The notes beneath the pieces were generated by a model. It ran no database searches and was not told where the DNA came from. It worked only from the letters and a program-made list of their open reading frames with translations. A DNA stretch of 64,000 bases from contig JANYJW010000033.1 in NCBI GenBank assembly GCA_025361705.1, positions 1 to 64,000 of the forward strand, written 5' to 3'. The translations under genes were made by a program, and so were the position numbers. The stretch is from Gemmatimonas sp. (GTDB taxonomy: Bacteria > Gemmatimonadota > Gemmatimonadetes > Gemmatimonadales > Gemmatimonadaceae). Within the stretch, counting starts at the first letter, position 1; every line of letters starts with the position of its first letter. Of this stretch, positions 7,493 to 63,930 are shown piece by piece.

Positions 7493-9886
7493 ATGGCCAC
7501 CGTTGCCGAGCTGTATGAGACGATGGAGTACGGTCCCGCGCCCGAGGGCGACGCGCCGGTGCGCGCCTGGCTCGCGGCGCACGACGCCCGGTTCGGGCAC
7601 TTCATCGGTGGCGCGTGGACGAAGGCAGGCAAGGGCTTCGACACGTGCGATCCCTCCACTGGCGCTCGGCTGGCGGGGGTGACGCACGGTACGGCCCGGG
7701 ACGTTGATGCCGCCGTGGCTGCGGCCCGCAAGGCGTACCCGGCGTGGAGCAAGCTCCCGCCGCACGCGCGCGCCCGGCACCTGTACGCGCTGGCGCGCAT
7801 GGTGCAGCGGCACGCGCGCCTGTTCGCCGTGCTCGAGACGCTCGACAACGGCAAGCCGATTCGCGAGACGCGCGACGTGGACGTGCCGCTCGTGGCGCGG
7901 CACTTCTACCACCACGCCGGGTGGGCGCAGTTGGCCGACACCGAGTTTGCGGGCTACGGCCCCGTGGGCGTGATTGGCCAGATCATTCCGTGGAATTTTC
8001 CGCTGCTCATGCTGTCGTGGAAGGTGGCGCCCGCGCTCGCGGCGGGAAACACGGTGGTGCTCAAGCCGGCCGAGTTTACGCCGCTCACTGCGCTGCTCTT
8101 CGCCGAGTTCGCGCATCAGGCCGGGCTGCCCGCGGGCGTGCTGAACGTCGTGACCGGCGACGGGGACACAGGCGCGGCGCTGGTGAACCATCCGAAGGTC
8201 GACAAGATCGCGTTCACGGGGTCCACCGAGGTGGGCAAGATCATCCGCCAGGCGACGGCGGGAAGCGGCAAGAAGCTGTCGCTGGAGCTCGGCGGCAAGA
8301 GCCCGTTTATCGTGTTCGAGGATGCCGACCTCGATGGCGTGGTCGAGGGTGTCGTGGACGCCATCTGGTTCAATCAGGGGCAGGTCTGCTGTGCCGGGTC
8401 GCGCCTGCTCGTGCAGGAGGGCGTGGCCGACCGGCTGCACGCGAAATTGAAGGCGCGCATGGAGACGCTGCGTGTGGGCCCGCCGCTCGACAAGACGGTG
8501 GACATGGGCGCGGTGGTCGCACCCGTGCAGCTGCAGCGTATCAGCGCGCTGGTGGAGCAGGGGCGCGCCGAGGGTGCGAGCGTGTGGCAGCCCTCGTGGC
8601 AGGTGCCGGCGACGGGCTCGTTCTATCCGCCAACGCTCTGCACCGATGTGTATCCGTCGAGCACCATCGCGCAGGTGGAGATCTTCGGCCCGGTGCTGGT
8701 GTCGATGACGTTCCGCACGCCCGAGGAATCGGTGGCGCTGGCCAACAACACGCCGTACGGCCTGGCCGCGTCGGTGTGGACCGAGAACATCAACCTCGCG
8801 CTCGACATCGCGCCCAAGATCAAGGCCGGCGTGGTGTGGGTGAACGCATCCAACCTGTTTGACGCGGCCGCGGGGTTCGGCGGGTATCGCGAGAGCGGGT
8901 TCGGCCGGGAAGGTGGGCGCGAAGGAATGTGGGAGTATCTGAAGCGACGGGAGACAGGAGATGGGAGACGGGAGCCGGTGACCGCGCGGTCGCTCGTCGC
9001 TCGTCCCCCGTCCCTCATCTCGCCAGCGCCAGCCGGCGCTGGCGTCGACCGCACCGCCAAGCTCTACATCGCGGGCAAGCAGGCGCGCCCCGACAGCGGG
9101 TACTCGCGCGTGATCACGTCGCCCAAGGGGCGCACGCTTGGCGAAGTGGCCGAGGGTAGTCGCAAGGACATTCGCAATGCGGTGGAGGCGGCGCATGCGG
9201 CCGCGAAGGGCTGGGCGGGCGCCACCGGGCACCTGCGCGCGCAGATCCTCTATTACATCGGCGAGAACCTCGACGCGCGCCACGCCGAATTTGCCGCGCG
9301 CCTCGGCGCGATGACCGGTGCCACGGCCGCCGATGCCCGGCGCGAGGTCGATGCCACGGTGCGCCGGCTCTTCACCTACGCCGCGTGGGCCGACAAGTGG
9401 GATGGCGCGGTGCACAGCGTACCCATCCGTGGCGTCGCGCTGGCGATGCACGAGCCCATCGGGGTGGTGGGGGTCGCGGCGTCGTTTGCCGCGCCGCTGC
9501 TTGGCCTCGTCTCGCTGGTGGCGCCGCTGATTGCCACCGGCAACACCGTGGTGGCGGTGCCGAGCGAGCCGCACCCGCTGGCCGCCACCGACTTGTACCA
9601 GGTGTTCGAGACCTCGGACCTGCCGGGTGGAGTGGTGAACATCATCACGGGTGAGCGCGATGCGCTGGCCAAGGTGATGGCGGAGCACGACGACGTGGAT
9701 GCCGTCTGGTACTGCGGAACCGCGCGTGGGGTGAAGACCGTCGAGATGGCGTCGGCGTCGAACATGAAGCGCACGTGGTGCACGGCGGACGCGCGCGACT
9801 GGATGGATGCGTCGCACGGCGAAGGGCGCGAGTACCTGCGCGGGGCAGTGCAGGTGAAGAACATCTGGATTCCGTACGGTGAGTGA
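7493..9886 (+). CDS. ALDH16-type double-domain aldehyde dehydrogenase
   Basis: NAD(P)-dependent aldehyde dehydrogenase of 797 residues made of two ALDH folds. Domain 1 (about 1-485) is complete: general base Glu265 in LELGGKSP and nucleophile Cys299 in NQGQVCCAG. Domain 2 (about 520-797) keeps the fold ([46 protein letters not shown]) but has neither the ELGGK box nor the GQxC cysteine, so it is presumably catalytically dead, as in the ALDH16 family. The linker (about 485-517) is unusual: it is encoded by heptameric repeats and a perfect 10-bp hairpin and reads as low-complexity Arg/Pro/Ala sequence. Start is ATG 7493; a longer upstream extension of this frame is only a shadow of deoC. Acetaldehyde from DeoC is a plausible substrate. 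Confidence 0.9.
8946..9044 (+). repeat. Heptameric repeats and hairpin inside the ALDH16 linker
   Basis: Bases 8946-8972, read on the minus strand, give GTCTCCC/ATCTCCT/GTCTCCC units; 8989-9021 carry the related CTCGTCC/CCCGTCC pattern on the plus strand. The two arms form an imperfect inverted repeat (GAGATGGGAGACGGG against GAGATGAGGGACGGG). They are followed by a perfect 10-bp stem CGCCAGCGCC / GGCGCTGGCG (9021-9044) with loop AGCC. The whole block is translated in frame as the interdomain linker. Confidence 0.75.
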
Positions 9887-9890
9887 GCCG

Positions 9891-9920
9891 ACGGAGTACG
9901 GCGTCTGGCGTACAGCGTAC
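9891..9920 (-). repeat. Heptameric repeat between ALDH16 and tesB
   Basis: On the minus strand the intergenic sequence reads GTACGCT/GTACGCC/AGACGCC/GTACTCC, four 7-base units in register. It starts 4 bases after the ALDH16 stop. Same family, diverged unit, as the RTCTGCC blocks elsewhere. Confidence 0.65.
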
Positions 9921-9973
9921 CGCAGCCGCGCTCAGCACGCGGTCCGCGGCACGCCATCAGCTGAGCACCGCGT

Positions 9974-10852
9974 ATGACGACTCCCGTCGCCGACCTGCTC
10001 GACCTGCTCGACCTCGAGCCGCTCGAGGTCAACATCTACCGCGGGCGCAACCGCGACATCGGCACCGGACGCGTGTTCGGCGGTCAGGTGTTCGCACAGG
10101 CACTGGTTGCCGCGCAGCGCACCGTCGAAGCCGGGCGCGATGCACACTCGGTGCACGGTTATTTTCTGCGGGCTGGCGACCTCAAGGCGCCCATTATCTT
10201 CTTCGTGGACCGGCCGCGGGACGGCGGGTCGTTCACGAGCCGGCGCGTGACGGCCATCCAGCACGGCGAGGCCATCTTTCACCTCTCCGCCTCGTTCCAC
10301 GTCAGTGCGTCCGGGCTCGAGCACCAGTCGGCGATGCCCGAGGTGCCGCCCCCCGAGTCCTTGGCGCCCGAGCTCGACCTCATCCGTGAGATGGCGCACC
10401 GCATTCCCGAGTCGGTGCGCGCCGTCCTCACGCAGGACCGTCCGTTCGACTTTCGGCCCGTCGCGCCCATGGATCCGTTCCACCCCGAGGTGCGTGACCC
10501 TGTGCGACGCGTCTGGTTCCGCGTGCTGGCGCCGCTGCCCGACGAGCGCATCATCCATCAGGCGGTGCTGGCGTACGCCAGCGACTACGGCCTGCTGCCC
10601 ACGGCGCTGCATCCGCACGGCGTGGCCATGCGCGATCCGCGCATGCAGATGGCGTCGCTCGACCACTCGCTGTGGCTGCACCGCCCGTTCCGCGCCGACG
10701 ACTGGCTGCTGTACGACATGGACAGCCCGGTGGCCGCGGGGGCCCGTGGCTTCACCCGCGGCGCGATCTTCGCGCGCACCGGGGAACTGGTGGCGTCGGT
10801 GGCGCAGGAAGGGCTGATGCGGATGCGCTCGGAGCAGGGGCCGCGTCCCTGA
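9974..10852 (+). CDS. tesB: Acyl-CoA thioesterase II
   Basis: Cytoplasmic double-hotdog thioesterase (292 aa) releasing free acids from acyl-CoAs. The catalytic Asp204 (ASDYGLLP) and Gln278 (SVAQEGLMR) fall at the same residue numbers as in E. coli TesB; the third residue, Thr228 there, is Ser228 here (MASLDHSLW), a conservative change. The N-terminal hotdog shows RVFGGQVFAQAL and the C-terminal one RGAIFARTGELVASVAQEG. Starts at ATG 9974 after an 87-base gap filled largely with heptameric repeats. It is followed by a new transcription unit, so it may be monocistronic. Confidence 0.93.
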   Translation: MTTPVADLLDLLDLEPLEVNIYRGRNRDIGTGRVFGGQVFAQALVAAQRTVEAGRDAHSVHGYFLRAGDLKAPIIFFVDRPRDGGSFTSRRVTAIQHGEAIFHLSASFHVSASGLEHQSAMPEVPPPESLAPELDLIREMAHRIPESVRAVLTQDRPFDFRPVAPMDPFHPEVRDPVRRVWFRVLAPLPDERIIHQAVLAYASDYGLLPTALHPHGVAMRDPRMQMASLDHSLWLHRPFRADDWLLYDMDSPVAAGARGFTRGAIFARTGELVASVAQEGLMRMRSEQGPRP

Positions 10853-10965
10853 GGTTGCTTGCTACGATTCCGTCCCGTTCCTAGGTTAGGCACGTTCGCG
10901 TCACTCGGCGCTCCCCGCAGGTGGGGCCGGCGGTGCGACGTCACGACTTCTTCCCGGATGCCCTC

Positions 10966-12297: not shown

Positions 12298-12324
12298 CCG
12301 CATGATCGCCGCTGCCCGGGGCGC

Positions 12325-15181: not shown

Positions 15182-16006
15182 CTACTCTGCCTGCTTCACC
15201 TCGTCCCACATCGCGTCGAGTACGGGCAGCCCCGCCGTGCGCACGTCCACGCCGCGCTGCACGGCGAGCCGTTCGATGGCCTCGAACCGCCGTTGGAACT
15301 TGCCGTTGGCCGCGTCGAGGGCGAGCGCGGGATGCACCCCGCATTTGCGGCACAGGTTGACCACGGCAAACAGCAGGTCGCCCAGCTCACCCTCGAGCGC
15401 GGCATGCCGCGGGTCGCCACTCGGGACGCCGTGGGTGGCGAAGACGTGCCCATCGCGCGCAATGAGCTCGGCCACCTCGGCCAGTTCCTCGGTGACCTTC
15501 TGTGACGGCCCCTCCGCGTCGGGCCAGTCGAAGCCCACGCCGGCCGCACGTTCCTGCAGTCGGTGCGCGCGGTGCAGGCTCGGCAGCCCCTGCGGTAGTC
15601 CTTCTGCAAGCGACGTGCGCGTCTTGGACTTCATCTGCTCCCACGGCTCGCGCTTGGAATCATCCGCGAGCACGCTGCCGTCTGCCGTCGGCCGTCGGCC
15701 CTCTGGATACAGCCACGGATGCCGCTTCACCATCTTTGCTACCAGCGACCCCGAGACGTCGCGGATATCGAACGCGCCGCGCTCCTCGGCGATGAGGGCA
15801 TGGAAGAGCACCTGCAGCAGCACATCGCCGAGCTCGCTGCACGTGGCCGCGTCATCGCCGGCCAAGAGCGCGTCGTCGAGCTCGTGCATTTCCTCGTTGA
15901 GGTAGGGGCGCAGGGAATGGTGCGTCTGCGCCTTGTCCCAGGCGTCGCGTGTCCGCAGGTCGCGCATGATGGCCAGCGCGTCGTCGAGTGTCTTCTTTTC
16001 TTGCAT
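15182..16006 (-). CDS. mazG: Nucleoside triphosphate pyrophosphohydrolase MazG
   Basis: Hydrolyses (d)NTPs to monophosphates plus pyrophosphate; house-cleaning and stress-response enzyme. 274 residues with two MazG repeats: first with EEMHELDDAL and ELGDVLLQVLFHA (metal-binding ExxE/ExxD), second with TEELAEVAELI and GELGDLLFAVVNLCRK. Between them, after KRHPWLYP, lies an extra segment EGRRPTADGSVLADD where family members usually have a short loop; it is encoded by heptameric repeats (15674-15707). ATG 16006 is chosen because GAGGGGGG sits just upstream; a 12-codon longer start lacks this. Divergent from alr with only 35 bases between, so promoters must overlap. Confidence 0.93.
   Translation of the reverse strand: MQEKKTLDDALAIMRDLRTRDAWDKAQTHHSLRPYLNEEMHELDDALLAGDDAATCSELGDVLLQVLFHALIAEERGAFDIRDVSGSLVAKMVKRHPWLYPEGRRPTADGSVLADDSKREPWEQMKSKTRTSLAEGLPQGLPSLHRAHRLQERAAGVGFDWPDAEGPSQKVTEELAEVAELIARDGHVFATHGVPSGDPRHAALEGELGDLLFAVVNLCRKCGVHPALALDAANGKFQRRFEAIERLAVQRGVDVRTAGLPVLDAMWDEVKQAE
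15674..15707 (+). repeat. Heptameric repeat inside mazG
   Basis: Plus-strand units GCTGCC/GTCTGCC/GTCGGCC/GTCGGCC/CTCTGGA, read in frame on the minus strand as the extra EGRRPTADGS loop of MazG. The block keeps the reading frame open. Confidence 0.75.
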
Positions 16007-22299: not shown

Positions 22300-22455
22300 A
22301 GACCTGGACTCAGGATGGCGATCGGGAATGTCGATGATGGATCGCAATCCCGAAAATCCGCCGGAGTCCCCGTGCCGTGACGCCCCGGATCGCCAATCGC
22401 GATCCCGGATCGCAAACTGCCGTCGGTATGCTGAGTCCAAATCCTGAATCGTCCC
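22294..22455. repeat. Inverted-repeat element between the REC-kinase gene and miaB
   Basis: The minus strand of 22294-22322 carries ATCGCCATCCTGAGTCCAGG and the plus strand of 22425-22450 carries the related ATGCTGAGTCCAAATCCTGA, so the element's ends point outward. The interior is rich in GATCGC/GATCCC units roughly 7 bases apart (for example ATCGCCA/ATCGCG/ATCCCGG/ATCGCAA). A third copy of the CTGAGTCCA motif lies at 53849-53877. It covers the whole gap and the last codons of the upstream gene. Confidence 0.65.
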
Positions 22456-22457
22456 CC

Positions 22458-23783
22458 ATGCCTACTGTCTTCATCGAAACCTACGGCTGCCAGATGAACG
22501 TCAGCGACTCCGAGCTCATGCTTGGCACGCTGGCGGCCGAGGGCTATGTGGCGGTGGACGGGCCCGAGGATGCCGACGTCGTGCTGCTCAACACCTGCGC
22601 CATTCGCGAGCACGCGGAGACGCGCGTCATCGGGCGGCTCGGGGAGTTGCGACGCTTTCTCAAGAAGGACGCGGTGCTCGGCGTGACCGGATGCATGGCG
22701 CAGCGGCTCGGGCCGCGTCTGCTGGACAGCGACTCGCGCGTGTCGCTGGTCATCGGCCCTGACGGCTACCGCGCGCTGCCCACGCTGATCGAGAGCGCAC
22801 GCAAAGGCGAGCGCATGACGTCCACCGACTTCGATCTCGAGGAGCACTACGAAGACGTGCAGGCGAGCCGCTTTGACGGGGTCAAGGCGTGGATCCCCGT
22901 GCAGCGCGGCTGCGACTACCGCTGCACCTATTGCATCGTGCCGTTCACGCGCGGCAACGAGCGCAGCCGGCAGCTTGAGGACGTGGTGCGCGAAACGGCG
23001 GCGGTGGTGGCGCAGGGACTCACCGAGGTGGTGCTGTTGGGTCAGACCGTGAATTCGTATCACGACGGCGCGCGCGACTTTGCCGACCTGCTGCGTGCGG
23101 TCGGCGCGGTGCCGGGGCTGCAGCGCCTGCGATTCACCAGCCCGCATCCCAACGACTTCAGCGACCGGGTCATTGCGGCCATGGCCGACGTGGCGACCGT
23201 GTGCGAACACGTGCACCTGCCCATGCAGAGCGGGTCGAGCCGCACGCTCAAGCGGATGCTGCGCCGCTATTCGCGTGCGGAGTATCTGGATTGCGTGGCG
23301 CGCCTGCGCGCCGCCATCCCGGGGCTGGGACTCACCACCGACATCATCGTCGGCTTTCCCGGGGAGACGGACGAGGAGTTTGCCGAAACGCTCAGTGCGG
23401 TGCGCGAGATCGGATTTGACGATGCGTTCATGTTCAAGTTCTCGCCGCGTGAGGGGACGCCGGCCACGCGCTTTCCAGCCAGCGAGACGGTGCCCGAGGA
23501 CGTGGTGGACGCGCGCTTCGATGAACTGATGAAGACCGTGCGCGGCATGTCGCGCGACCGCAACTTCCGTCGCGTGGGTGAGCGCACCGAGGTGCTGGTG
23601 GAGAAGGAGGCGCGCAAGGGCGAGCTGATGCAGGCGCGGTCGCGCGATTTCAAGACCGTGCTCGTGCCTGGCGACCGAACGCTCATCGGCCAGTACCTGC
23701 ATGTGGAACTGACGGGCACGACCGGGTCGACGTTTACGGGGCAAGTGGTGCGGGAGCGCAAGGCGTTGCCGACGGCGGGATGA
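22458..23783 (+). CDS. miaB: tRNA-2-methylthio-N6-dimethylallyladenosine synthase
   Basis: Radical SAM methylthiotransferase (441 aa) acting on i6A37 of tRNAs reading UNN codons. N-terminal domain cluster Cys11 (ETYGCQMN), Cys47 (NTCAIRE) and Cys79 (TGCMAQR); radical-SAM CxxxCxxC at Cys152, Cys156, Cys159 (GCDYRCTYC); C-terminal TRAM domain (about 375-441) ending in FTGQVVRERKAL. ATG 22458 gives the family-typical MPTVFIETYGCQMN start; a 27-codon longer in-frame start exists but is made only of repeat sequence. Not coupled to neighbours. Confidence 0.96.
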   Translation: MPTVFIETYGCQMNVSDSELMLGTLAAEGYVAVDGPEDADVVLLNTCAIREHAETRVIGRLGELRRFLKKDAVLGVTGCMAQRLGPRLLDSDSRVSLVIGPDGYRALPTLIESARKGERMTSTDFDLEEHYEDVQASRFDGVKAWIPVQRGCDYRCTYCIVPFTRGNERSRQLEDVVRETAAVVAQGLTEVVLLGQTVNSYHDGARDFADLLRAVGAVPGLQRLRFTSPHPNDFSDRVIAAMADVATVCEHVHLPMQSGSSRTLKRMLRRYSRAEYLDCVARLRAAIPGLGLTTDIIVGFPGETDEEFAETLSAVREIGFDDAFMFKFSPREGTPATRFPASETVPEDVVDARFDELMKTVRGMSRDRNFRRVGERTEVLVEKEARKGELMQARSRDFKTVLVPGDRTLIGQYLHVELTGTTGSTFTGQVVRERKALPTAG

Positions 23784-23816
23784 AGGAGACGTAAGCGGGA
23801 GACGGGCGACGGACGT
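23784..23816 (-). repeat. Heptameric repeat after miaB
   Basis: Minus-strand reading gives GTCC/GTCGCCC/GTCTCCC/GCTTAC/GTCTCCT, about 7-base spacing, beginning right at the miaB stop. The rest of the gap to comEC (to 23889) shows nothing recognisable. Confidence 0.55.
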
Positions 23817-23889
23817 AGCCCGCCCGCGCGTCATGTGCAGCGTTTTGCCGTCATGCGCGTGGACTCGATGACGCATCGCGACGTGCCGC

Positions 23890-28605: not shown

Positions 28606-28636
28606 GGGACATCCGGAACCCCGATCCTGACGTTCC
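28606..28636 (+). repeat. Diverged heptameric repeat after the mutase gene
   Basis: The gap reads ATCCGGA/ACCCCG/ATCCTGA/CGTTCC, units 6-7 bases apart, running to the GTG start of the next gene. Assigned to the repeat family with low certainty. Confidence 0.35.
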
Positions 28637-36146: not shown

Positions 36147-36764
36147 ATGTTCACCGGCATCATCAGCGACGTCGCCACCATCGTCCGGGTCGCCAGCACC
36201 GCGGCGGGGCGTGAGTTCGTGGTGGGCACGGTGTTCGACGGAATGACCGACGGCGAGAGCATCGCGTGCGACGGCGTCTGCCTGACGGTACGCGAGGCCA
36301 GTGCGGGCACATTTACCGTAGCCGCTGTGGTGACGACGCTCGAACGCACCACGCTCGGCAGCTGGCACGAGGGCCGCCGCGTGAACACCGAGCGCGCGAT
36401 GGCCCTCGGCGATCGGCTGGGCGGACATCTTGTGGCGGGGCACGTCGACTGCGTGGCCGAGGTGACGCGCGTTGCCATGCATGGCGACGCACTGCTCATC
36501 GACCTCGCGCTGGCCCCCGAGTGGATGCCGCTGATGGTTCCCCACGGCTCCATTGCGGTGAATGGCGTGAGCCTCACCGTGAACGAGCGGTTGGACGCGG
36601 GCGTCCAGATTTCCCTGATCGAGTACACACTGCGGCACACGGCGCTGGGCGACCTGCGCGCGGGCGACCGCTGCAACATCGAAGCCGACCTGGTGGGCAA
36701 GTTCGTGCAGCAACTCGCTGCGCCGCATCTGCCATCTGCCGTCTCCCATCTGCCATCAGCGTAA
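36147..36764 (+). CDS. ribE: Riboflavin synthase alpha chain
   Basis: Dismutates two 6,7-dimethyl-8-ribityllumazine molecules to riboflavin. 205 aa with two internal beta-barrel repeats: MFTGIISDVATIV and GESIACDGVCLTV in the first, LGGHLVAGHVDCVAEV and GSIAVNGVSLTVNE in the second. The last dozen residues, HLPSAVSHLPSA, do not belong to the family; they are translated from heptameric repeats (36727-36760) that run to the stop. The stop abuts the ribBA ATG with no gap, so ribBA has no separate Shine-Dalgarno and relies on coupling. Confidence 0.94.
   Translation: MFTGIISDVATIVRVASTAAGREFVVGTVFDGMTDGESIACDGVCLTVREASAGTFTVAAVVTTLERTTLGSWHEGRRVNTERAMALGDRLGGHLVAGHVDCVAEVTRVAMHGDALLIDLALAPEWMPLMVPHGSIAVNGVSLTVNERLDAGVQISLIEYTLRHTALGDLRAGDRCNIEADLVGKFVQQLAAPHLPSAVSHLPSA
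36727..36760 (+). repeat. Heptameric repeat forming the ribE 3' end
   Basis: Units ATCTGCC/ATCTGCC/GTCTCCC/ATCTGCC/ATC, among the least degenerate copies of the family in the window. Translated as the foreign-looking RibE C-terminus and placed directly before ribBA, where a ribosome binding site would be expected. Confidence 0.85.
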
Positions 36765-37967
36765 ATGCCATTCGCGACCGTCGAGCAGGCCATAGCCGAT
36801 CTCCGCGCCGGCAAGTTCATAGTCGTTGCCGATGACGAGGACCGCGAGAACGAGGGTGACCTCATTCTCGCGGCCGAATTTGTCACGCCCGAAAAAGTCA
36901 ACTTCCTCATGCAGGCCAAGGGGATGATCTGTGTCGCGCTGAGTCCCGCGCGCGTGGCGCAGCTCAACCTGCCGATGATGGGGCACGAGAATTCCGACGC
37001 GCTCCGGACGGCGTACACCGTCACCATCGATGCCGTGCGCCGCTACGGAGTCACCACGGGCATCAGCGCGGCCGACCAGGCGGCAACCATCCGGCAGTGC
37101 GCGACGGCCGAGGCCGTGCCCTCGGACTTCCGGCGGCCCGGGCACGTGCATCCGCTGCGCGCCCGCGAGGGCGGCGTGCTGGAGCGCACGGGACACACCG
37201 AAACGGCCGTCGACCTCATGCGCCTGGCGGAACTGCAGCCGGCGGGCGTCATCTGCGAAATCCTGACCGACGACGGGTCCACGGCGAAGCGTCCGCAGCT
37301 CGACGCGTTCTGCCGCCAGCACGGGTTGTCCTTCATCACAGTGGCGCAGGTGGTGGCCCACCGACTGCGCAACGAGCGCCTGGTGCACCGCGTGGCCGAG
37401 GCGCGCCTCCCCACCGAGTTCGGCGAGTTCACGGTGATCGGCTATCGCAACGATGTCGATGAGCGCGAGCACGTGGCGCTGGTGATGGGCCAACTGGAGG
37501 GCGCCGACGAGGTGCTGGTGCGCATGCATTCCAAGTGCCTCACCGGCGACACGTTCCATTCGCTGCGCTGCGATTGCCGCTGGCAGCTGCATGAGGCCAT
37601 GCGACTCATTGGCGCGGCGGGGCGCGGCGTGATCGTCTATCTCGATCAGGAAGGGCGGGGCATTGGCCTGCTCAACAAGCTCAAAGCCTATGAGCTGCAG
37701 GATCGCGGTGCGGACACGGTGGAGGCCAACGAGCGCCTCGGCTTCGCGCCTGACCTGCGGAACTACGGTATCGGCGCGCAGATCCTGCTCGACCTCGGCC
37801 TCGAGTCCATCCGGCCCATCACCAACAACCCCAAGAAGCTCGTCGGCCTCGAAGGCTACGGGCTGCGGCTGGGTGAGCGCGTGCCGGTCATTTCGCCGAC
37901 GACGAGCGAGAACGCGAATTATCTCGAGACCAAGGTGCGCAAGCTCGGCCACTTGAGGGCGCTCTAA
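36765..37967 (+). CDS. ribBA: 3,4-dihydroxy-2-butanone-4-phosphate synthase / GTP cyclohydrolase II
   Basis: Bifunctional enzyme (400 aa) making both riboflavin precursors. RibB domain (about 1-200): FIVVADDEDRENEGDLILAAE, GMICVALSP, HTETAVDLMRLA and ICEILTDDG. RibA domain (about 205-400): zinc cysteines in HSKCLTGDTFHSLRCDC, catalytic DQEGRGIGLLNKL, and LGFAPDLRNYGIGAQIL. Both halves keep their catalytic residues. Starts at ATG 36765 immediately after the ribE stop and ends one base into ribH. Confidence 0.96.
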   Translation: MPFATVEQAIADLRAGKFIVVADDEDRENEGDLILAAEFVTPEKVNFLMQAKGMICVALSPARVAQLNLPMMGHENSDALRTAYTVTIDAVRRYGVTTGISAADQAATIRQCATAEAVPSDFRRPGHVHPLRAREGGVLERTGHTETAVDLMRLAELQPAGVICEILTDDGSTAKRPQLDAFCRQHGLSFITVAQVVAHRLRNERLVHRVAEARLPTEFGEFTVIGYRNDVDEREHVALVMGQLEGADEVLVRMHSKCLTGDTFHSLRCDCRWQLHEAMRLIGAAGRGVIVYLDQEGRGIGLLNKLKAYELQDRGADTVEANERLGFAPDLRNYGIGAQILLDLGLESIRPITNNPKKLVGLEGYGLRLGERVPVISPTTSENANYLETKVRKLGHLRAL

Positions 37968-48898: not shown

Positions 48899-49960
48899 AT
48901 GGTGTTTGCCGGTCATGCCACGCGAGTTGCCACACGCGCAACGCGCGCCACACGCGCCACACGCGCCACACGCGCCACACGCGCCGCACGCGCCGCACGC
49001 GCCGCAGGCGTCGCGGCCTGTTGCGCCGTCATGGGCGCCCTGGCGTGCAGCAGTCCCGCCCGTGATCTGCGCGGCCTGGGCGCGGGTGATGCGGCCGTCG
49101 CGCCGGGGGCGCCTGTCGCGAACATTGCACCGGGGCTAGGTGCAGCGGGCGACACAAGGGTGGATGACTTCGGCGATGCGCTGCAATTGTCAGCGCCCGC
49201 CCAGCGCATCGTCTCGCTGAACCCCGTCACCACCGAAGCGTTGTTTGCCATTGGTGCCGGCGCACGCGTCGTTGGCCGCACGCATTGGGACAACGCGCCG
49301 CACGCCGCGCTTGCCGTGGCCGACCTCGGCAACGGCATCCAACCCAATGTCGAGGCCGTGCTGGCCGTGCACCCGGACCTCGTGGTGCTCTACGCGGCGC
49401 AGTCCAACCGCGCCGCAGCCCGTGCGTTCCGTCGCGCTGGCGTGCAGACGCTCACGCTGCGTACCGATCACGTGGCGGATCTCGACCGTGTCCTGCGCGA
49501 TCTCGGGCGCGTCACGGACCGTTCGACCGAAGCGCAAGGAGTGGCCGACTCCGTGCGCCGCTCGCTCGCGGCCGTGCGCGCCATGCCATCGCACGGCACG
49601 CCACCGTCCGTCTTCTGGCACGTGTGGGACGAGCCCGTGATCACGAGCGGCGCGGGGAGCTACCTCGACGAACTTCTCACCCTCGCCAAGGCGCGCAATA
49701 CGTTTGGGGACCTCGCGCAGCCGTCGCCACAGGTGACGCTCGAGGCAATCGCGCAGCGCAATCCGGATTTCGTGCTCGCCGGCCCGCGCACCGCAGCGCG
49801 CCTGCGCACCGACACGCGCTGGCAGGTGGTGGACGCGGTGCGGCTCGGCCGCGTGCTCGTGTACGACACGATGCTGGTGGGGCGTCCGGGCGTGCGATTG
49901 GGTGAGGCCGCCCGATCGCTGCGCCTGTTGATTGACTCCGCCACGCGGGCGCGTCGATGA
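48899..49960 (+). CDS. btuF: Cobalamin ABC transporter substrate-binding lipoprotein BtuF
   Basis: Periplasmic binding protein (353 aa) for B12-type ligands. From about residue 95 it has the helical-backbone BtuF/FhuD fold: RIVSLNPVTTEALFAIGAG, GRTHWDN, NVEAVLAVHPDLVV and GSYLDELLTLAKARNTF. Lipobox ALAC with Cys50 gives membrane anchoring. The 49-residue pre-sequence is abnormal: residues 8-38 are an Arg-Ala-Thr array made by a 9-base minisatellite (48931-49011), before the hydrophobic core AAGVAACCAVMGALAC. ATG 48899 is chosen because its Shine-Dalgarno lies in the regulatory hairpin; an earlier in-frame ATG (48833) would be inside the leader. Confidence 0.88.
   Translation: MVFAGHATRVATRATRATRATRATRATRAARAARAAGVAACCAVMGALACSSPARDLRGLGAGDAAVAPGAPVANIAPGLGAAGDTRVDDFGDALQLSAPAQRIVSLNPVTTEALFAIGAGARVVGRTHWDNAPHAALAVADLGNGIQPNVEAVLAVHPDLVVLYAAQSNRAAARAFRRAGVQTLTLRTDHVADLDRVLRDLGRVTDRSTEAQGVADSVRRSLAAVRAMPSHGTPPSVFWHVWDEPVITSGAGSYLDELLTLAKARNTFGDLAQPSPQVTLEAIAQRNPDFVLAGPRTAARLRTDTRWQVVDAVRLGRVLVYDTMLVGRPGVRLGEAARSLRLLIDSATRARR
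48931..49011 (+). repeat. 9-bp minisatellite in the btuF signal-peptide region
   Basis: Nine tandem units in register: CACACGCGC, AACGCGCGC, four times CACACGCGC, twice CGCACGCGC, then CGCAGGCGT. As 9 is a multiple of 3 the repeat encodes (Ala-Thr-Arg)n then (Ala-Ala-Arg)n, lengthening the positively charged n-region of BtuF without changing the frame. A partial older unit (GCCACGCGAG) precedes it. Confidence 0.95.
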
Positions 49961-51735: not shown

Positions 51736-51790
51736 TGTCAGGACTCTCATCTCCGCTGTCAGTAGTCCTTTTACCGTCCACCGTCTCTTC
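51736..51790 (+). repeat. Heptameric repeats upstream of btuB
   Basis: Units such as GTCAGGA/CTCTCAT/CTCCGCT/GTCAGTA and ACCGTCC/ACCGTCT run straight into the btuB ATG at 51791, leaving no recognisable Shine-Dalgarno. No second riboswitch is present here. Confidence 0.6.
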
Positions 51791-53885: not shown

Positions 53886-54647
53886 TTGACCCTCGTCACC
53901 ACCGACGCCCTGGTGCTTCACGCCTTCGACTACCGGGAGACGTCGCGCATCGTGCGCCTCATCACCCGGGAACTCGGCATCGTGTCGGCGATTGCACGGG
54001 GGGCGCGGCGTCCGCGCAACAAGTTCGGGGCGGCGCTCGATCTGTTTGCCAGCGGGCAGGTGCAGCTCTCTACGGCCGAAGGCCGCGACCTGCACGCACT
54101 CAACGGCTTCGAGGCCACCTGCTCGCGGCCGGAACTCGCCACCTCGCTCGACCGCTTTGCCGCTGCTGCGGTGTTTGCCGAACTGCTGTTGCGGTTTGCG
54201 CCGGAACAGGAAGACCCAGGTCTGCTCGACGTCGTCACCGATGCGCTCGATGCGCTCTGCAGCGCGCCGCCCGGCGCAGCGGGGCCGGTGGCGCTTGGCG
54301 GCGCCTGGTGCCTGATTGCCGAGTTGGGTTTTGCCCCCGCGCTCGAGGCATGCGCGTCGTGTCACGCCGTGCTCGATCCTGCGGCCGCGGTGACGTTCCA
54401 CCATCGTGCCGGAGGCGCGCTGTGCGCCGCGTGTGCCCGGCACGCGCCCGGAGCACGTACGCTGCCCCCCGAGGCGCGTGGCACGCTGCGTGGATGGCTG
54501 GGGCGGCATCCCGCGCCGGCGCTCGATGAACCCACGCTGCGCGCGCACCAGCGCCTGTTGCGCGAGTTCCTCGAGGAGCACCTCACCGATGGTGGGCGTC
54601 CGTTGCGTGCCCTGGTGGCGTGGGAACGTCACGAGGTCGACGCGTGA
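53886..54647 (+). CDS. recO: DNA repair protein RecO
   Basis: Recombination mediator (253 aa) acting with RecR to load RecA on SSB-coated DNA. N-terminal OB-fold: [23 protein letters not shown] and [18 protein letters not shown]-terminal helical domain with a four-Cys zinc site, CASC (about 155) and CAAC (about 178). TTG at 53886 is the probable start because the conserved chain begins at once after it; no ATG or GTG is available upstream without repeat sequence. Stop overlaps selB (GTGA). Confidence 0.93.
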
Positions 54648-56545
54648 TCCTCGGCACCGCCGGCCACATCGACCACGGCAAGACGGCGCTCGTGCGCGCC
54701 CTCACCGGCGTCGACACCGACCGCCTGCCCGAGGAGAAGCGCCGAGGCATCACCATCGAGTTGGGCTTTGCGCCGCTTGCGCTCGAGGGCGTGGGCACGG
54801 TGGGCGTGGTTGACGTGCCCGGGCACGAGGCGTTTGTGCGCACGATGCTCGCGGGCGCGGCGGGCATCGACCTCGCCCTGCTCGTCGTTGCCGCCGACGA
54901 AGGCGTGATGCCGCAGACACGCGAGCACCTTGCCATCCTCGGCGCGCTGGGCATTCGCGGCGGCGTGGTGGCGCTCACCAAGAGCGACCTGGTGGACGAC
55001 GAGATGCGCGCACTTGCCGCTGAGGATGTGGCCTCGCTGCTCGTCGGCTCGCCGCTTGCGCACGCGCCCGTCATCGGGGTGTCGGCGCGAACTGGCGAGG
55101 GTCTGGATGCGCTGCGCCTCGCCCTTGCGTCGGCCGCCTTGTCGGTGCCCGCGCGAAATGCCGGCGACCTGTTCCGCATGCCCGTCGATCGCGTGTTCAC
55201 GGTGAAGGGCACGGGCACTGTGGCCACCGGCACGGTGTGGGGTGGCAGTGTGCGGCGCGACGAAACGCTGCAGGCGTTCCCCGGTGGCGCCCTGCTGCGC
55301 GTCCGAGGCGTGGAGGTTCATGGTCAGGCGGCGGATGCAGGGGGCGCAGGCCAGCGCGTCGCCATTGCCCTCGCTGGTGCCGAGCGTGACGAGCTCGCGC
55401 GCGGCGCAGTGCTGGTGGCCGCCGCCGACGCGTGGGCGCCGAGTGACCGGATGCGGGCCGACGTCGCACTCTTCGCCGACACCGACGTGGTGCTCACCGC
55501 GCGCACCCGTGTCCGCCTGCACCTCGGCACGGCGGATGTCGGCGCGCGCGTTGTGGCGCGCGGCGGGCCCGTGCGCCCGGGAGCCACCGTGGCGGTGCGG
55601 CTCGTGCTCGACCAGCCGCTCGTGGCGCGCGGCGGCGATCGCTTCGTGCTGCGCTCGGCGTCCCCGGTGGCGACCATCGGCGGGGGCGTGATCACCGATC
55701 CGCTGCCCCCGTTTCGCCGAGTGCCGCCGTTCGCCAGCGCCCTCGCGAGTGATGCCCAGCGACTGCGGTGGATGGTGGCTGAAGAGTCTGCGCGCGGACT
55801 CGAAGTGGCCGGCCTTGCGATGCGGCTTGGCATCCCCGCCAGTGCATGCCAATCTGCCGTCGGCCATCTGACGTCTGACATCACGCAAGTCGACGACCGC
55901 CTCGTCGAACAAAGCCGGTTGGCGTCCGCCATGTCGGCCCTGCTGGCGGCGGTCGATGCCGCGCATGCCCAACGCCCGCTCGACCGCGGCGTGCCGCTGC
56001 AGCCGCTGCGCGTGCGGCTTGGCGTGGGCCCCGAGGTGGCGGACTGGGTGGTGCGCGCCGCTGTGGAGCAGGGCGCCATCACCATGGCCGACGGGCTGGT
56101 GGCGCGTGCCGGGTGGGCGCCGCGGTTTTCCGCAGAAGATCTCGTGGCGCTTCCCGCCATCGAGGCGATGCTGGCCGCTGCTGGTCGCGAAGCGCCGACG
56201 GCCAGCGAGATTGCCGTGGTGGCCGGCCCGCGCACCCCGGCGCTGCTGCGCCTGCTCGAGCGCGAGGGGCGCGTGGTGCAGGTGGGAGAGCAGCGATTTC
56301 TCACAACTGGCGCCTGGCGGGAAGCGCTTCTCGCGTTGCGTACTCGCACCGTGGTCGACCGTACCTATGCGGCGGGCGAGTTTCGGGAAATATTCGGGGT
56401 GAGCCGCAAATTCTCCATCCCGCTCATCGAGGGCTGCGACCGGGTGGGTGTCTGCGCGCGGATCGGCGACGGCCGCCGGTTCTTCTGGGATCGTCTCAGC
56501 CTGGCCGTTGCCTCATTCCTTGACAGTTCGCCAGACCATCCATAG
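54644..56545 (+). CDS. selB: Selenocysteine-specific elongation factor
   Basis: GTPase (633 aa) delivering Sec-tRNA to UGA codons that precede a SECIS element. N-terminal EF-Tu-like part: [62 protein letters not shown]; domain II with [21 protein letters not shown]-terminal winged helices finish with [20 protein letters not shown], the typical SECIS-binding end. A stretch in the middle (about 403-415, [13 protein letters not shown]) is encoded by heptameric repeats. Starts at GTG 54644 over the recO stop. Its presence implies selA/selD/selC elsewhere. Confidence 0.94.
55852..55886 (+). repeat. Heptameric repeat inside selB
   Basis: Five units in perfect register: ATCTGCC/GTCGGCC/ATCTGAC/GTCTGAC/ATCACGC. 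Lies at the border between the GTPase-barrel part and the winged-helix part of SelB and is read through in frame. Confidence 0.8.
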
Positions 56546-56548: not shown

Positions 56549-56627
56549 GATCCTCGGCCAATCACATCCACACACAAACCTAGAGGAGACACTCAACAGA
56601 CCCTGCATTGTCTGAAAAGGAGCAACA

Positions 56628-57068: not shown

Positions 57069-57079
57069 ACAATCAGCAG

Positions 57080-57119: not shown

Positions 57120-57189
57120 ATGCCTTCCGTTCCGTTGCCAGCGGTGCGGCCAGACTGCACCTTCACTGCGTCCCCTTCACGCGGTCCGC

Positions 57190-58008: not shown

Positions 58009-58027
58009 TGGCAGTGTCGTTGCAGGA

Positions 58028-58110
58028 CGATTCTGCAGTTCCATGCACCGTGCACCACACCGTGCCTGCGTCCGTATCCCACACCATGCCTTTGCCCGCA
58101 GGATTCCACC
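58028..58110 (+). repeat. Low-complexity GTGCACC/CCACACC-rich leader before clpB
   Basis: The 127-base gap before clpB contains recurring ACCGTGC, CCACACC and ACCATGCC words at roughly 7-base intervals. It may be a further diverged block of the heptameric family, but register is poor. No CIRCE element or heat-shock promoter is recognisable here. Confidence 0.35.
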
Positions 58111-58135
58111 CCGTGCCCTTGCACCGCAGGCCAAG

Positions 58136-60721: not shown

Positions 60722-60737
60722 TGCGCAGGGCCCGCTG

Positions 60738-61739: not shown

Positions 61740-61748
61740 ATTCCGCCC

Positions 61749-62261
61749 ATGCCACGTGCGCCCGGACCTGTGACGTTCGCCTCGCGCGACGACGAAGACG
61801 ACTACTGGATGGGGCTCGCGATCGACGAGGCCAAGCGCGCCGCGGCCGCCGGCGAAGTTCCGGTTGGCGCGATGCTGCTTGTGTCGGGCGCGCCGGTGGC
61901 GAAGGCGCACAACACCATGGTGGCGAGCAAGGACGCCACGCAGCACGCCGAGATGCGCGCGCTCAAGGCCGGCGCGTATGCCGCTGGGGACACGCGCCTG
62001 GCGCAGGCCACGCTGTACGTGACACTCGAGCCCTGCGCGATGTGCGCTGGCGCCATCGTGCTCTCGCGCGTGGGGCGCGTGGTGTTTGGCGCGTGGGACG
62101 ACAAGGCGGGCATGGCGGGTTCGGTGCACGACCTGCTGCGGAACCCGCGGCTCAACCATCGGCCCGAGGTGCGAGGCGGGGTGCGCGAGAAGGAGTGCGC
62201 GATGTTGTTGAGCGGGTTCTTTGCCGGGCGAAGGGGAGGAGAGACATCAGATGGCAGATGA
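61749..62261 (+). CDS. tadA: tRNA-adenosine(34) deaminase
   Basis: Converts A34 to inosine in tRNA-Arg(ACG). 170 aa: zinc/proton-shuttle motif HAEM (about residue 65) and PCAMCAGAI, with the substrate-contacting SRVGRVVFGAWDDKAG segment and HRPEVRGGV of tRNA-type deaminases. The N-terminus is a little longer than usual (about 18 residues before the first helix). The last residues (GGETSDGR) and the stop codon itself are provided by heptameric repeat sequence. Confidence 0.94.
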   Translation: MPRAPGPVTFASRDDEDDYWMGLAIDEAKRAAAAGEVPVGAMLLVSGAPVAKAHNTMVASKDATQHAEMRALKAGAYAAGDTRLAQATLYVTLEPCAMCAGAIVLSRVGRVVFGAWDDKAGMAGSVHDLLRNPRLNHRPEVRGGVREKECAMLLSGFFAGRRGGETSDGR

Positions 62262-62327
62262 CGGCACGAGAGCCCGGAGGACTGCTCCCCCGGGCTCTCT
62301 GCCACCTGCCATCGGCCCTCTGACGTC
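62246..62327. terminator. Bidirectional terminator built from heptameric repeats
   Basis: Core stem GAGAGCCCGG / CCGGGCTCTC (62268-62277 and 62290-62299), perfect 10 bp, between the convergent tadA and namZ ends. It is extended by repeat arms in opposite orientation: the left arm carries GATGGCAG, the right arm CTGCCATC, the latter continuing as CTCTGCC/ACCTGCC/ATCGGCC/CTCTGAC/GTCTATT. The arms overlap both stop codons. Confidence 0.8.
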
Positions 62328-63547
62328 TATTTGTATATCCAGTACTTCCTTGCCTCACCCTCCCACGCCTTCGACTCCGCAGCGAGAATCGGCAGCAGCG
62401 CCTCGATGCCGCCGTCCTTCTCCACGGCCTCGCGCATGCGGGCACTGCCCGACAGCCGGTCGATGGAGCTCCTGCGCCACTCCCACTTGTCCTTGTGGCG
62501 CTCGTAGATGGCGCGCAGCATGTAGGCGCCGACGTCCACTGGCACGACCGCATCGCGGTTGGTGACCTTCACGTGAATCATCGGGATTGTCTGCCCGCCG
62601 AACTCATAGCCGGGTTCCACCGGTCGCAGAATTGAATCGAAGCGCACGCCAGGAATCTTCTTGGCGTTCAGCGCGGCCGCGATGGCGCCCGCGTCGGTGA
62701 GCCAGCTGGCCCCGGCTTGGGCGAACGGGTCGTCGGTGCCGCGTCCTTCGCTCACATTGACGCCCTCAAAGAAGACCGTGCCGGTATAGAGCACGTTGGC
62801 GTCGTTGTTGCGCAGGTTGGGCGACGGGTTGACCCAGGGCAGCCCGGTGTCTTCGTAGTACATCGACCGCGTGTACCCTTGCATGGGCACGACCTTGACG
62901 TCGGCCTTGAACTTGCCGCTCCCCACGAGGTACAGCGCGAGTTCGCCCGGCGTAAAGCCGTAGCGCAGCGACACGGGGTACAGCCCGACGAGCGACTTGA
63001 AGGCGGTGTCAAGGATGCCGCCGTCCACCTTGTCGGCGCGAATCGGGTTGGGGCGGTCGAGAATGATCACCGGCACGCCGGCCTTGCCTGCCGCTTCGAC
63101 CGCCTGCGCCATGGTCCACTGGTAGGTATAAACGCGTGCGCCGACGTCCTGGATGTCGTAGAGCAGCACGTCGATGGTCTTGAGCTGCTCGGGCGAGGGC
63201 ACGCGCTGGTCGCCGTAGAGCGAGTAGATGGGCACGCCCGTGGCCGAGTCGACGCTCGATGAGATCTTCTCGCCGGCCTTGGCGACGCCGCGAATGCCGT
63301 GTTCGGGCCCGAAGAGCGCCGCGAGCGTGACGCCCTTGGCCTTGAATAGCGCGTCGATGGTACTGGTGCCGTCGGGCAGTCGCCCGCTGTGGTTGGTGAG
63401 CAGGCCCACACGCTTGCCCTGCACGAGGTGCAGGGAGTCACGCAGGAGCACCTCGAGGCCGGAGCGGACACGGGCCTGGGCGAGGGCGGGGGATCCGCAG
63501 GCAGCGAGGGCCGCGGCGGCCAGCAGAAGTCGATGGCGGAGCGTCAT
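62327..63547 (-). CDS. namZ: Exo-beta-N-acetylmuramidase NamZ (DUF1343)
   Basis: 406-residue exported hydrolase of the DUF1343 family, whose characterised member NamZ removes MurNAc from the non-reducing end of peptidoglycan fragments. Motifs: RVGLLTNHSGRLPDG, ALFGPEHGIRGVA, DVLLYDIQDVGARVYTY, IILDRPNPI and FEGVNVSEGRGTDDPF. The N-terminus carries LAAC (Cys17) and, a little later, ALAQ, so it is either a lipoprotein or cut after ALAQ. ATG 63547 preferred to an upstream ATG (63583), giving a proper signal peptide. Suggests cell-wall recycling or scavenging. Confidence 0.9.
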   Translation of the reverse strand: MTLRHRLLLAAAALAACGSPALAQARVRSGLEVLLRDSLHLVQGKRVGLLTNHSGRLPDGTSTIDALFKAKGVTLAALFGPEHGIRGVAKAGEKISSSVDSATGVPIYSLYGDQRVPSPEQLKTIDVLLYDIQDVGARVYTYQWTMAQAVEAAGKAGVPVIILDRPNPIRADKVDGGILDTAFKSLVGLYPVSLRYGFTPGELALYLVGSGKFKADVKVVPMQGYTRSMYYEDTGLPWVNPSPNLRNNDANVLYTGTVFFEGVNVSEGRGTDDPFAQAGASWLTDAGAIAAALNAKKIPGVRFDSILRPVEPGYEFGGQTIPMIHVKVTNRDAVVPVDVGAYMLRAIYERHKDKWEWRRSSIDRLSGSARMREAVEKDGGIEALLPILAAESKAWEGEARKYWIYK

Positions 63548-63586
63548 GCTGAAAGGTGGCACTGCTGGGGGGCGGGTGTCCATTGA

Positions 63587-63656
63587 GATGGCAGACTTCT
63601 GATGGCAGACTTCTGATGGCAGACTTCAGATGGCAGACGGCCGAGGGCAGACGGCG
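63587..63656 (-). repeat. Tandem 14-bp (double-heptad) repeat upstream of namZ
   Basis: Five contiguous 14-base units on the plus strand: GATGGCAGACTTCT twice, GATGGCAGACTTCA, GATGGCAGACGGCC, GAGGGCAGACGGCG. On the minus strand this resolves to heptads GTCTGCC alternating with ATCAGAA. The most regular tandem block in the window, lying between namZ and the tRNA-Ser promoter. Confidence 0.9.
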
Positions 63657-63692
63657 CGCAGCACGGGTGGTGCTGATCTACGGTGGCAACAG

Positions 63693-63721
63693 TTGACCCT
63701 GATCACGCACCGGGATAATTT
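63693..63721 (+). promoter_or_regulatory. Promoter of tRNA-Ser(CGA)
   Basis: TTGACC (63693-63698) with TAATTT 17 bases downstream (63716-63721), or the better hexamer GATAAT (63714-63719) with 15-base spacing. Transcription would begin about 5-10 bases before the mature tRNA 5' end at 63735. Confidence 0.6.
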
Positions 63722-63734
63722 CAGGATTCTGCTT

Positions 63735-63821
63735 GGACAGGTGGCCGAGTGGTTGAAGGCACCGGTCTCGAAAACCGGCGTACCGGCAACGGTACCGTGA
63801 GTTCGAATCTCACCCTGTCCG
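63735..63821 (+). tRNA. tRNA-Ser (anticodon CGA)
   Basis: Type II tRNA, 87 bases. Acceptor GGACAGG pairs with CCTGTCC; D-arm GGCCGAGTGG; anticodon arm CCGGT-CTCGAAA-ACCGG gives anticodon CGA (reads UCG); long variable arm GTACCGGCAACGGTACC; T-arm with GTTCGAATC. Discriminator G is as expected for serine. CCA is not encoded. Confidence 0.97.
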
Positions 63822-63833
63822 CTCGATCAGGAC

Positions 63834-63870
63834 GCGCAACGCGTCGGTGCCCGCACCGGCGCGTTGTCGC
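63834..63870 (+). terminator. Hairpin after tRNA-Ser(CGA)
   Basis: GCGCAACGCG pairs with CGCGTTGTCGC (one bulged T) around an inner stem GGTG/CACC. No T-tract. Could terminate the first tRNA transcript or be a processing structure between the two tRNA genes. Confidence 0.45.
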
Positions 63871-63898
63871 AGGTAGTCGCGCAACGGCGCTGTCATCG

Positions 63899-63930
63899 AC
63901 CGTCTACCGTCTACCGTCTGCAGTCTGCGG
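63899..63930 (+). repeat. Heptameric repeat between the two tRNA-Ser genes
   Basis: ACCGTCT repeated three times without mismatch (63899-63919), then GCAGTCT and GCGG; in the common register these are GTCTACC/GTCTACC/GTCTGCA/GTCTGCG. Ends 4 bases before the second tRNA. Confidence 0.85.

Follow-up and report, generated by a model that had tools for sequence, protein, structure and literature searches.

Arrays of a dispersed 7-bp repeat family (unit consensus GAYGGNR, both orientations) occupied sites that were often common to the species of one genus of uncultured Gemmatimonadota, while the units at those sites differed between species; the own genome and ten congeners were compared. The inverted arms within one gap were matched in unit type, and matched arms point to copying in cis. 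With a probability just short of even, these long-lived intergenic arrays are maintained by DNA-level turnover, that is, by replication slippage together with arm-to-arm template switching.

The window, i.e., the whole stretch of 64 kb analysed, had been described in an earlier note as carrying 15 blocks of 7-base periodicity. For every length, intergenic sequence was simulated 1500 times with a first-order model, and the blocks, which had been picked by eye, were each compared with these simulations (p-values uncorrected), with p < 0.01 as the pass level in a lag-7 test and in a GAYGGNR-profile test. Nine blocks passed both tests (8946, 9891, 15674, 23784, 36727, 55852, 62246, 63587 and 63899). 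Two passed one test: block 51736 passed the profile test (0 of 1500 simulations as good; lag-7 p = 0.018), and block 31970 was periodic (0 of 1500 simulations) but its unit differed from GAYGGNR (profile p = 0.16). Block 22294 was marginal (lag-7 p = 0.053; profile p = 0.035), and blocks 28606, 29646 and 53849 were not above chance in the lag-7 and profile tests (1500 simulations per length). The units attributed to the blocks did not hold for 9891 and 31970, which had other or mixed units. The array sites and adjoining features in the window were:

8940..8986, + strand: inverted pair within the long ORF 7493-9886, left arm (GAYGGNR array)
8985..9024, - strand: right arm, pair of the 8940..8986 array
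9891..9920, + strand: weak periodic block of GTACGGC-like units in gap 9887-9973 (lag-7 15/21, profile p = 0.009)
15669..15707, - strand: GAYGGNR array within the MazG ORF 15182-16006
23791..23816, + strand: degenerate array just 3' of the stop of gene 22377-23783
36716..36766, - strand: array in which the lumazine-binding-domain ORF (36147-36764) ends
51758..51789, - strand: degenerate array upstream of the gene that starts at 51791
55847..55891, - strand: array in the SelB ORF 54644-56545, between the beta-barrel and winged-helix domains
62231..62269, + strand: inverted pair, left arm; overlaps the stop of gene 61770-62261
62268..62299, no strand: GC-rich inner hairpin between the arms
62294..62331, - strand: right arm, where the convergent NamZ gene (62327-63451) ends
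63582..63659, + strand: long array; starts where the alternative ATG (63583) of the NamZ ORF lies on the complementary strand
63735..63822, + strand: tRNA-Ser(CGA) (L303:735-822), between two inverted arrays
63887..63934, - strand: GACGGTA-type array that runs up to the 5' end of a second tRNA-Ser(GGA)

Four of the blocks (8946, 15674, 36727 and 55852) lay within called coding sequence. The aldehyde dehydrogenase domain of ORF 7493-9886 ended at about 8950, and a G005 ORF of nearly equal length (L228:15846-18242) had an inverted pair of another unit at the matching place. The G005 gap orthologous to 9887-9973 scored 21 bits. Array 36716..36766 had its C-rich strand as the sense strand and lay directly before the ribBA start (36765); at this site C-rich-sense heptamers occurred in all 8 relatives seen, with differing units. 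Gaps orthologous to the 51758..51789 site held clear arrays of differing units in G001, G002 and G008, and a hairpin like 62268..62299 was found in the orthologous gap of G001, G004 and G010. The alternative start of the NamZ gene was 63583 instead of 63451.

The genome-scale sample consisted of the window and 40 further stretches (753 kb, of which 75 kb were non-coding by own gene calls). Genes were called with an own script; single family-level genomes offered too little training sequence, their coding fractions were unreliable, and their rows were used for lag counts only. At a criterion of at least 18 of 21 lag matches, lag-7 arrays numbered 23 in intergenic and 4 in coding sequence, though 90% of the sample was coding; this bias to non-coding DNA was present with a unit length not divisible by three. 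Intergenic arrays at lags 5, 8, 10 and 11 numbered 0-2 each in the 753 kb, and the highest non-multiples of 7 were lag 18 (7 intergenic arrays) and lag 12 (5). None of 50 simulated sets had a lag-7 intergenic array, against 23 in the real sequence. A periodic profile, trained on the very gaps on which it was scored, detected arrays in 45 of the 334 gaps that measured 28 bp or more, vs. 0.67 in simulated gaps. It also found arrays in 27 gaps read backwards and uncomplemented, because the reversed unit is itself near the family. Chance or composition as the source of the arrays was ruled out by the first-order simulations. The lag-7 and profile tests thus bore out a dispersed 7-bp-periodic family in both orientations, with a lag-7 signal far above first-order simulations and with blocks across the genome and genus beyond the window, and the family withstood both refuting conditions named in the earlier note.

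The density of one element per 4-5 kb, or about 1000 per chromosome, proposed in the earlier note was overestimated three- to fivefold. The 753 kb held 88 arrays: 10 in the 64-kb window, 57 in 400 kb of five long contigs already seen to carry matches, and 21 in 289 kb of other contig starts. Extrapolation gave about 350 arrays per 2.97 Mb overall, and about 220 from the less selected stretches. The suggestion that the repeats fill most larger gaps failed, with an array in only 1 of 9 complete window gaps of at least 100 bp (23784-23994; array weak). Several unit types stood side by side in one genome; adjacent-copy counts in the G000 sample were 320 for GATGGCG, 137 for GATGGCA and 33 for GACGGGA, and GACGGTG reached 133 in G010.

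Counted once each, 154 of 182 arrays had a purine-rich strand that pointed inward from the gene border closest to them. In the own genome the G-rich strand was sense after stops in 40 vs. 8 cases and antisense before starts in 26 vs. 3, and in the relatives the counts were 37 vs. 9 and 51 vs. 8, respectively. With a stricter profile, inward arrays of the own genome numbered 37 vs. 7 at stops and 13 vs. 2 at starts. Among the gaps with several arrays (n = 36 in the genus), 28 were '+-', 2 '++-', 6 same-direction and none '-+'; hence 30 of 36 were inverted pairs, all of one polarity (G000: 12 '+-', 0 '-+', 2 same-direction). Many arrays were single, without a partner arm. At stops, 51 of 71 border matches were phase-locked to the stop codon (p = 2.5e-12), i.e., in one of the two phases where TGA supplies GA or TAG supplies G; one array in a short gap can count at both borders in this total.

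An 11-bp family (GAGAGACAACA), without G-tract, followed the same orientation rule. It ran inward at starts in 16 of 16 matches, 8 of them more than 15 nt from the border, and had no T on the purine strand (two 11-bp hits in G000, at any place, were marginal by eye), hence no start codon; start-codon avoidance alone therefore cannot be the cause. Arrays at coding ends were C-rich-sense in 9 cases and G-rich-sense in 1, and because they represent one orthologous site in nine species they count as one case.

Where the own gap had an array, the relative had one in 31 of 55 comparisons, vs. 4 of 112 where the own gap had none (Fisher p = 1e-14, comparisons not independent). Calculated per gap, sharing was 0.53 over 11 gaps vs. 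0.05 over 35 (p = 3e-6), in a sample partly chosen around own arrays (L163, L175). The orthologous gap L175:12782 held an inverted pair in 7 of 8 species, the own genome included, with six different units among the 7 species and the unit type alike in both arms; the eighth species (G004) had no array in this gap.

At threshold 16, unit similarity was 0.521 between the arms of one gap (32 pairs), 0.447 between orthologous gaps and 0.442 between unrelated arrays. Thresholds 16 and 20 gave orthologous arrays no higher similarity than unrelated ones, and threshold 24 a slightly higher one (0.496 vs. 0.479). Arm-to-arm match was 15.8 vs. 11.6 for arms swapped within the genome (0 of 300 swaps; genomes with three or more pairs, which supplied 22 of the 33). 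A genome dialect effect was small: per-genome mean similarity was 0.475 vs. 0.442 with shuffled genome labels (0 of 300 shuffles reached 0.475), and without G000 it was 0.480 vs. 0.459 (2 of 300). Pooled same-genome arrays did not differ in this direction (0.440 vs. 0.442 for unrelated), because G000 (0.430) dominates the pairs, and the effect appeared only as a mean over genomes. With weak arrays included, the arm effect was seen and the genome effect was not.

For the turnover proposed here, we infer two steps. Slipped-strand replication would renew the units within each array, and template switching, of the kind known at quasi-palindromes, would copy one inverted arm onto the other. According to the accessible parts of two papers (PMC8604942, and PMC7202029, an E. 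coli study by its title), template switching makes the arms of inverted repeats uniform and operates at quasipalindromes. Since many arrays are single, arm copying cannot act at those. Slippage alone does not explain one unit family at hundreds of unlinked sites. The orientation rule would be imposed by translation: a purine-rich array may supply TGA or TAG in its first unit, so that the gene ends there; a pyrimidine-rich array without a stop would become part of the coding end; and a purine-rich array in front of a start would be lost, as it could resemble a ribosome-binding signal. This argument from translation is indirect, and the coding-end arrays that agree with it amount to the one case given above. 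Effects of the arrays on mRNA ends, if any, would be secondary.

A primary role at that level, with the arrays selected as terminators, processing sites or insulators of mRNA ends, was judged rather unlikely. It would place a purine-rich 5' arm after the stop and a pyrimidine-rich 3' arm before the next start, and agrees with the fixed polarity of inverted pairs, the location at gene borders and the sites common to species. Rehm et al. (PMC4692102, accessible text) found transcript starts or stops to be more frequent in quadruplex-capable repeats than in their control repeats. In co-directional gaps of 80-200 bp a hairpin outside the array was present in 2 of 44 gaps with arrays vs. 58 of 202 without, but the difference faded when any hairpin was counted (7 of 44 vs. 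58 of 202; p = 0.09). Unmasked counts of convergent gaps gave no sign of arrays standing in for terminators: a hairpin was equally common where arrays were present (14 of 22 gaps) and where they were not (50 of 76), and of the 14 hairpins in array-bearing gaps 11 lay mostly outside the arrays. Masking of arrays, which hides hairpins touching them and shortens the sequence, gave the opposite direction in convergent gaps (6 of 21 with arrays vs. 49 of 71 without; p = 0.002). Folding z-scores in a sample of gaps did not clearly separate array from array-free gaps (medians -3.75 vs. -3.39 convergent, -1.83 vs. -0.72 co-directional). The arms of co-directional gaps had no wobble asymmetry in a low-power test, which, like the abundance of single arrays, speaks against selection at mRNA ends.

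A single DNA-copying process at work in many bacterial phyla, which would write short purine-strand repeats from gene borders inward, renew the two arms of a gap in concert and so give each species its own repeat dialect at inherited sites, was considered improbable. Were it true, the geometry would be what is conserved, and not the sequence, a quadruplex or a fixed unit length of 7, since the 11-bp family behaves like the 7-bp one. The loci from other phyla had been chosen by (GATGGCA)4; at least 80 were analysed, 7 of them from Gemmatimonadota, and a later analysis left out 6 of these 7.

A sequence-specific protein that changes its specificity from species to species could read the arrays as nucleoid, segregation or DNA-uptake signals; such sites were less probable still. 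Weak genome-specific dialects, both orientations and dispersal fit such sites, but several unit types coexist in one genome, and arms more alike than the rest of the genome are not required by a trans-acting reader.

G-quadruplex elements, as proposed for the GGGNATC repeats of Xanthomonas and Nostoc, were very improbable. Period, placement and strand rule agree with those repeats as described in the accessible text (PMC4692102), and GACGGGA units carry GGG; the commonest units, however, carry GG only, GGG (GACGGGA) occurs in a minority, and four or more G-tracts of at least 3 G were not present with the dominant units. The 11-bp family has no G-tract and yet follows the strand rule. A rule held by two unrelated units of different lengths, mostly without G-tracts, argues that the quadruplex model is not a general explanation.

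A dedicated copying enzyme was the least probable. It would be either a reverse transcriptase of telomerase type that lengthens the two 3' ends at an intergenic break, or a transposase of REP type (Y1). A G-rich strand that points inward at both borders is what 3'-end extension would be expected to leave, and DRT10 shows (PMC12632851, accessible part) that an RNA template can serve bacteria for the synthesis of tandem-repeat DNA, but RVT_1 had no match in 10 of 11 genus genomes (own and 99%-complete G001 included) and Y1 transposase none in 9 of 11 (G000 among them; matches only in G006 and G010), so that absence from most genus genomes largely ruled out both origins, with the reservation that the genomes are 78-99% complete and the gene could be missed in some.

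The earlier note was right in recognising a genome-wide heptanucleotide family of STRR type, as simulations and genus-wide occurrence indicated. Its sole precedent, heterocystous cyanobacteria, was too narrow, with heptamers reported also from Xanthomonas (PMC4692102) and Beggiatoaceae (PMC4679880) in the accessible text of both papers. A search of the open-licence literature found no description of Gemmatimonadota heptamer repeats among the papers listed, which is weak evidence of absence. Heptanucleotides are the most abundant long simple repeats in most genomes (Mrazek et al. 2007, as cited in the accessible text of PMC4679880).

Judged by the accessible text of Rehm et al. 2015 (PMC4692102), on GGGNATC repeats of Xanthomonas and GGGGA(T/C)T repeats of Nostoc, the present family is a variant of these heptameric repeats, mostly without the G-tracts of the quadruplex model. 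Shared features are the 7-bp unit, mostly intergenic location, genome-wide dispersal, overlap with ORF ends, and the strand rule, by which the sense strand is G-rich immediately after a stop and the antisense strand immediately before a start. Xanthomonas also has inverted pairs of convergent orientation (70 and 75 cases in two genomes), of which Nostoc has only a few. The present repeats differ in unit (GAYGGNR, mostly GG not GGG) and phylum (Gemmatimonadota), in units that differ between species at one site with arms changing together, and in an 11-bp analogue that follows the strand rule too. The TAACTGA heptamers of Beggiatoaceae, Cyanobacteria and Bacteroidetes (MacGregor 2015; PMC4679880, accessible text) are likewise intergenic tandem arrays, patchy across phyla, and in one genome lie mostly just upstream of starts. 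They differ in having a fixed unit, related heptamers rarely or never repeated and one 'indirect' repeat, and neither TAACTGA nor close relatives were among the unit spectra here. For cyanobacterial STRR and the repeats of Mrazek et al. 2007, inverted pairing and unit turnover are not stated in the accessible parts of the citing papers (PMC4679880, PMC4692102). DRT10 cDNA shares tandem short repeats of one strand sense; it needs a reverse transcriptase (PMC12632851, accessible part), unlike the repeats here, where none was found in 10 of 11 genus genomes.

Published accounts of bacterial heptanucleotide repeats, as far as accessible, give no settled origin or function. Unit turnover at kept sites offers a handle on how heptamer repeats arise, and in one genus whose several species have shared sites and differing units, orthologous loci allow the renewal to be followed. 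Gene ends are shaped by the arrays as well: the first unit often includes the stop codon, and arrays occur in frame within SelB, within the aldehyde dehydrogenase ORF and at the end of the lumazine-binding-domain ORF.

The own-genome sample comprised the window and 40 further stretches (753 kb, 75 kb of it non-coding by our own gene calls). The assembly is 2.97 Mb in 71 contigs and 93% complete, and its contig 18 starts with the 64-kb window; the host genus is uncultured Gemmatimonadota (GC ~67-70%). Syntenic stretches were collected from ten congeners for gap-by-gap comparison.

The signal at lag 7 (≥18/21 matches) exceeded that of random sequence, with 23 intergenic arrays and 4 coding arrays in 753 kb versus no array in 50 first-order simulations of the same non-coding length. 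Its multiples gave 25 (lag 14) and 18 (lag 21) intergenic arrays, and the remaining lags from 4 to 20 gave 0-7 each, with lags 18 and 12 the highest. A periodic profile, trained on the same data, converged to G-A-Y-G-G-N-R and was positive in 45/334 real gaps vs. 0.67 simulated gaps; it was positive in 27 gaps read backwards, because the reversed unit itself resembles the family. At 14 bits, 88 arrays were found in 753 kb: the window contributed 10, contigs already known to have matches 57 (400 kb), and the starts of other contigs 21 (289 kb). Among the 15 blocks that the earlier note had claimed as periodic, nine passed both the lag-7 and profile tests, those at 51736 and 31970 passed one, that at 22294 was marginal, and those at 28606, 29646 and 53849 failed. 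The observation of a dispersed 7-base family is partly confirmed, and its interpretation partly supported. Individual sites in the window were:

63735-63822 (L303:735-822), tRNA-Ser (CGA), between two inverted heptamer arrays
63934 onward (L303:934-1021), tRNA-Ser (GGA), starting at the end of the right array and extending beyond the window
7493-9886, ORF encoding an aldehyde dehydrogenase domain and containing an in-frame inverted heptamer pair followed by ~290 more codons
55847-55891, heptamer array in the part of the SelB ORF that links its beta-barrel and winged-helix domains

An ORF of congener G005 (L228:15846-18242) has the layout of ORF 7493-9886 with a different repeat unit. A nine-bp tandem, GCCACACGC (~8 copies), lies at 48929-49003 within a 527-bp gap. 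A convergent gap holds a ~180-bp self-complementary element (L163:11939-12122), with diverged copies elsewhere in the own genome (C59 and C67) and in congeners.

Arrays occupied 15/48 convergent, 25/220 co-directional and 5/66 divergent gaps of the own genome; for the genus set, pooled from gaps of 40-400 bp, the respective counts were 21/92, 72/411 and 16/120. Relative to the nearest gene border, the purine-rich GAYGGNR strand mostly pointed inward. Counting each array once, inward vs. outward arrays numbered 40 vs. 8 at stops and 26 vs. 3 at starts in the own genome (334 gaps), and 37 vs. 9 and 51 vs. 8 in relatives (434 gaps); a stricter profile gave 37 vs. 7 and 13 vs. 2 in the own genome. 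Gaps with two arrays usually held an inverted pair, purine arm left (own genome: 12, with none reversed and 2 same-direction); multi-array gaps of the genus set read '+-' in 28 cases, '++-' in 2, '++' in 3, '--' in 3 and '-+' in none. Among 748 stop borders examined, 51/71 matches fell in two of seven phases (p = 2.5e-12), those in which TGA supplies the unit's GA, or TAG its G.

In several orthologous gaps an array was present in nearly every species seen. At L175:12782 an inverted pair occurred in 7/8 species, G004 having no array there, and both arms shared the unit type within each:

own genome (G000), GACGAGG-type
G001 and G005, GATGGCG
G006, GATGGTA
G007, GATGGCA
G008, GATGGGA
G010, GACGGTG

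The relative had an array in 31/55 comparisons with an own array in the gap vs. 4/112 without, leaving out 7 and 16 comparisons, respectively, in which the relative's spacer was <28 bp. Own arrays without counterparts included L163:9043 (0/6) and L163:18996 (0/3). Coding identity between species at compared loci was mostly ~71-87% (longer matches) with periodicity intact, which implies that arrays are renewed. Unit similarity (threshold 16) was 0.521 between arms of one gap, as against 0.447 for arrays of orthologous gaps and 0.442 for unrelated arrays. Within genomes, the mean of genome means was 0.475 vs. 0.442 for shuffled genome labels (0/300 reached it); pooling all same-genome pairs gave just 0.440, because most came from the own genome, with its several unit types. 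Arms matched each other at 15.8 vs. 11.6 for arms exchanged within the genome (0/300; 22/33 pairs). At L163:4605-4807 and its orthologues, ~40 bp upstream of the array are conserved in most congeners; these may form a promoter region, which would put the array in a 5' leader.

A second tandem family in congeners, with the 11-bp unit GAGAGACAACA, followed the same strand rule (28 inward, 5 outward; starts 16 vs. 0, stops 12 vs. 5). The own genome all but lacks it, with 2 weak matches in 753 kb. Before the lumazine-binding-domain gene it lay at the start border in G001, G002, G006, G008 and G010; in G005 it lay within that gap too, on the same strand but nearer the other gene's stop, and was thus scored outward. 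Gaps with several such arrays all read '+-' (7/7). Inverted pairs, purine arm left, often adjoin stops and starts, and include, among others:

L222:19195-19345
L232:3210-3343
L252:8974-9216
L253:8183-8383

Unit turnover, matched arms, a strand rule holding across sequences and lengths, and independence of G-tracts favour DNA-level turnover as what maintains the arrays, with translation filtering their orientation. Replication slippage would act within an array, one inverted arm would be copied to the other, and translation would filter array orientation. The simplest translation argument is weakened because the 11-bp purine strand contains no start codon; the coding-end arrays that fit it come from a single orthologous site. 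The arrays may instead act in transcription termination, although ordinary hairpins appear to be retained in convergent gaps. That a reverse transcriptase lays down the repeats is attractive because array geometry is that of 3'-end extension, but this origin largely fails on gene content.

All 8 sampled genomes of the genus contained exact (GAYGGNR)4, with 24 to 320 matches each; elsewhere its occurrence was patchy (30/201 genomes of the order, 11/69 genera). Exact (GATGGCA)4 was found in many phyla among the matches listed. At 80 such loci, seven of them from Gemmatimonadota, adjacent GAYGGNR arrays ≤250 bp apart read '+-' in 14 cases, '-+' in 1 and same-direction in 4. Lag-7 inverted pairs, counted without six of those seven loci, had the G-rich arm left in 10/13, the C-rich arm left in 1 and were even in 2. 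G012, from another genus of the family, had inverted pairs built from GGGAATC and AGGAACC units.

The GAYGGNR arrays are a kind of repeat already known. In Rehm et al. 2015 (PMC4692102), the same strand rule is reported for Xanthomonas and Nostoc heptamers, and inverted pairs, ORF-end overlap and conserved positions for those of Xanthomonas. The present genus adds unit turnover at shared sites and matched arms, as well as a strand rule that still applies when sequence and unit length differ, with no dependence on G-tracts, and the evolutionary pattern of the arrays is informative.
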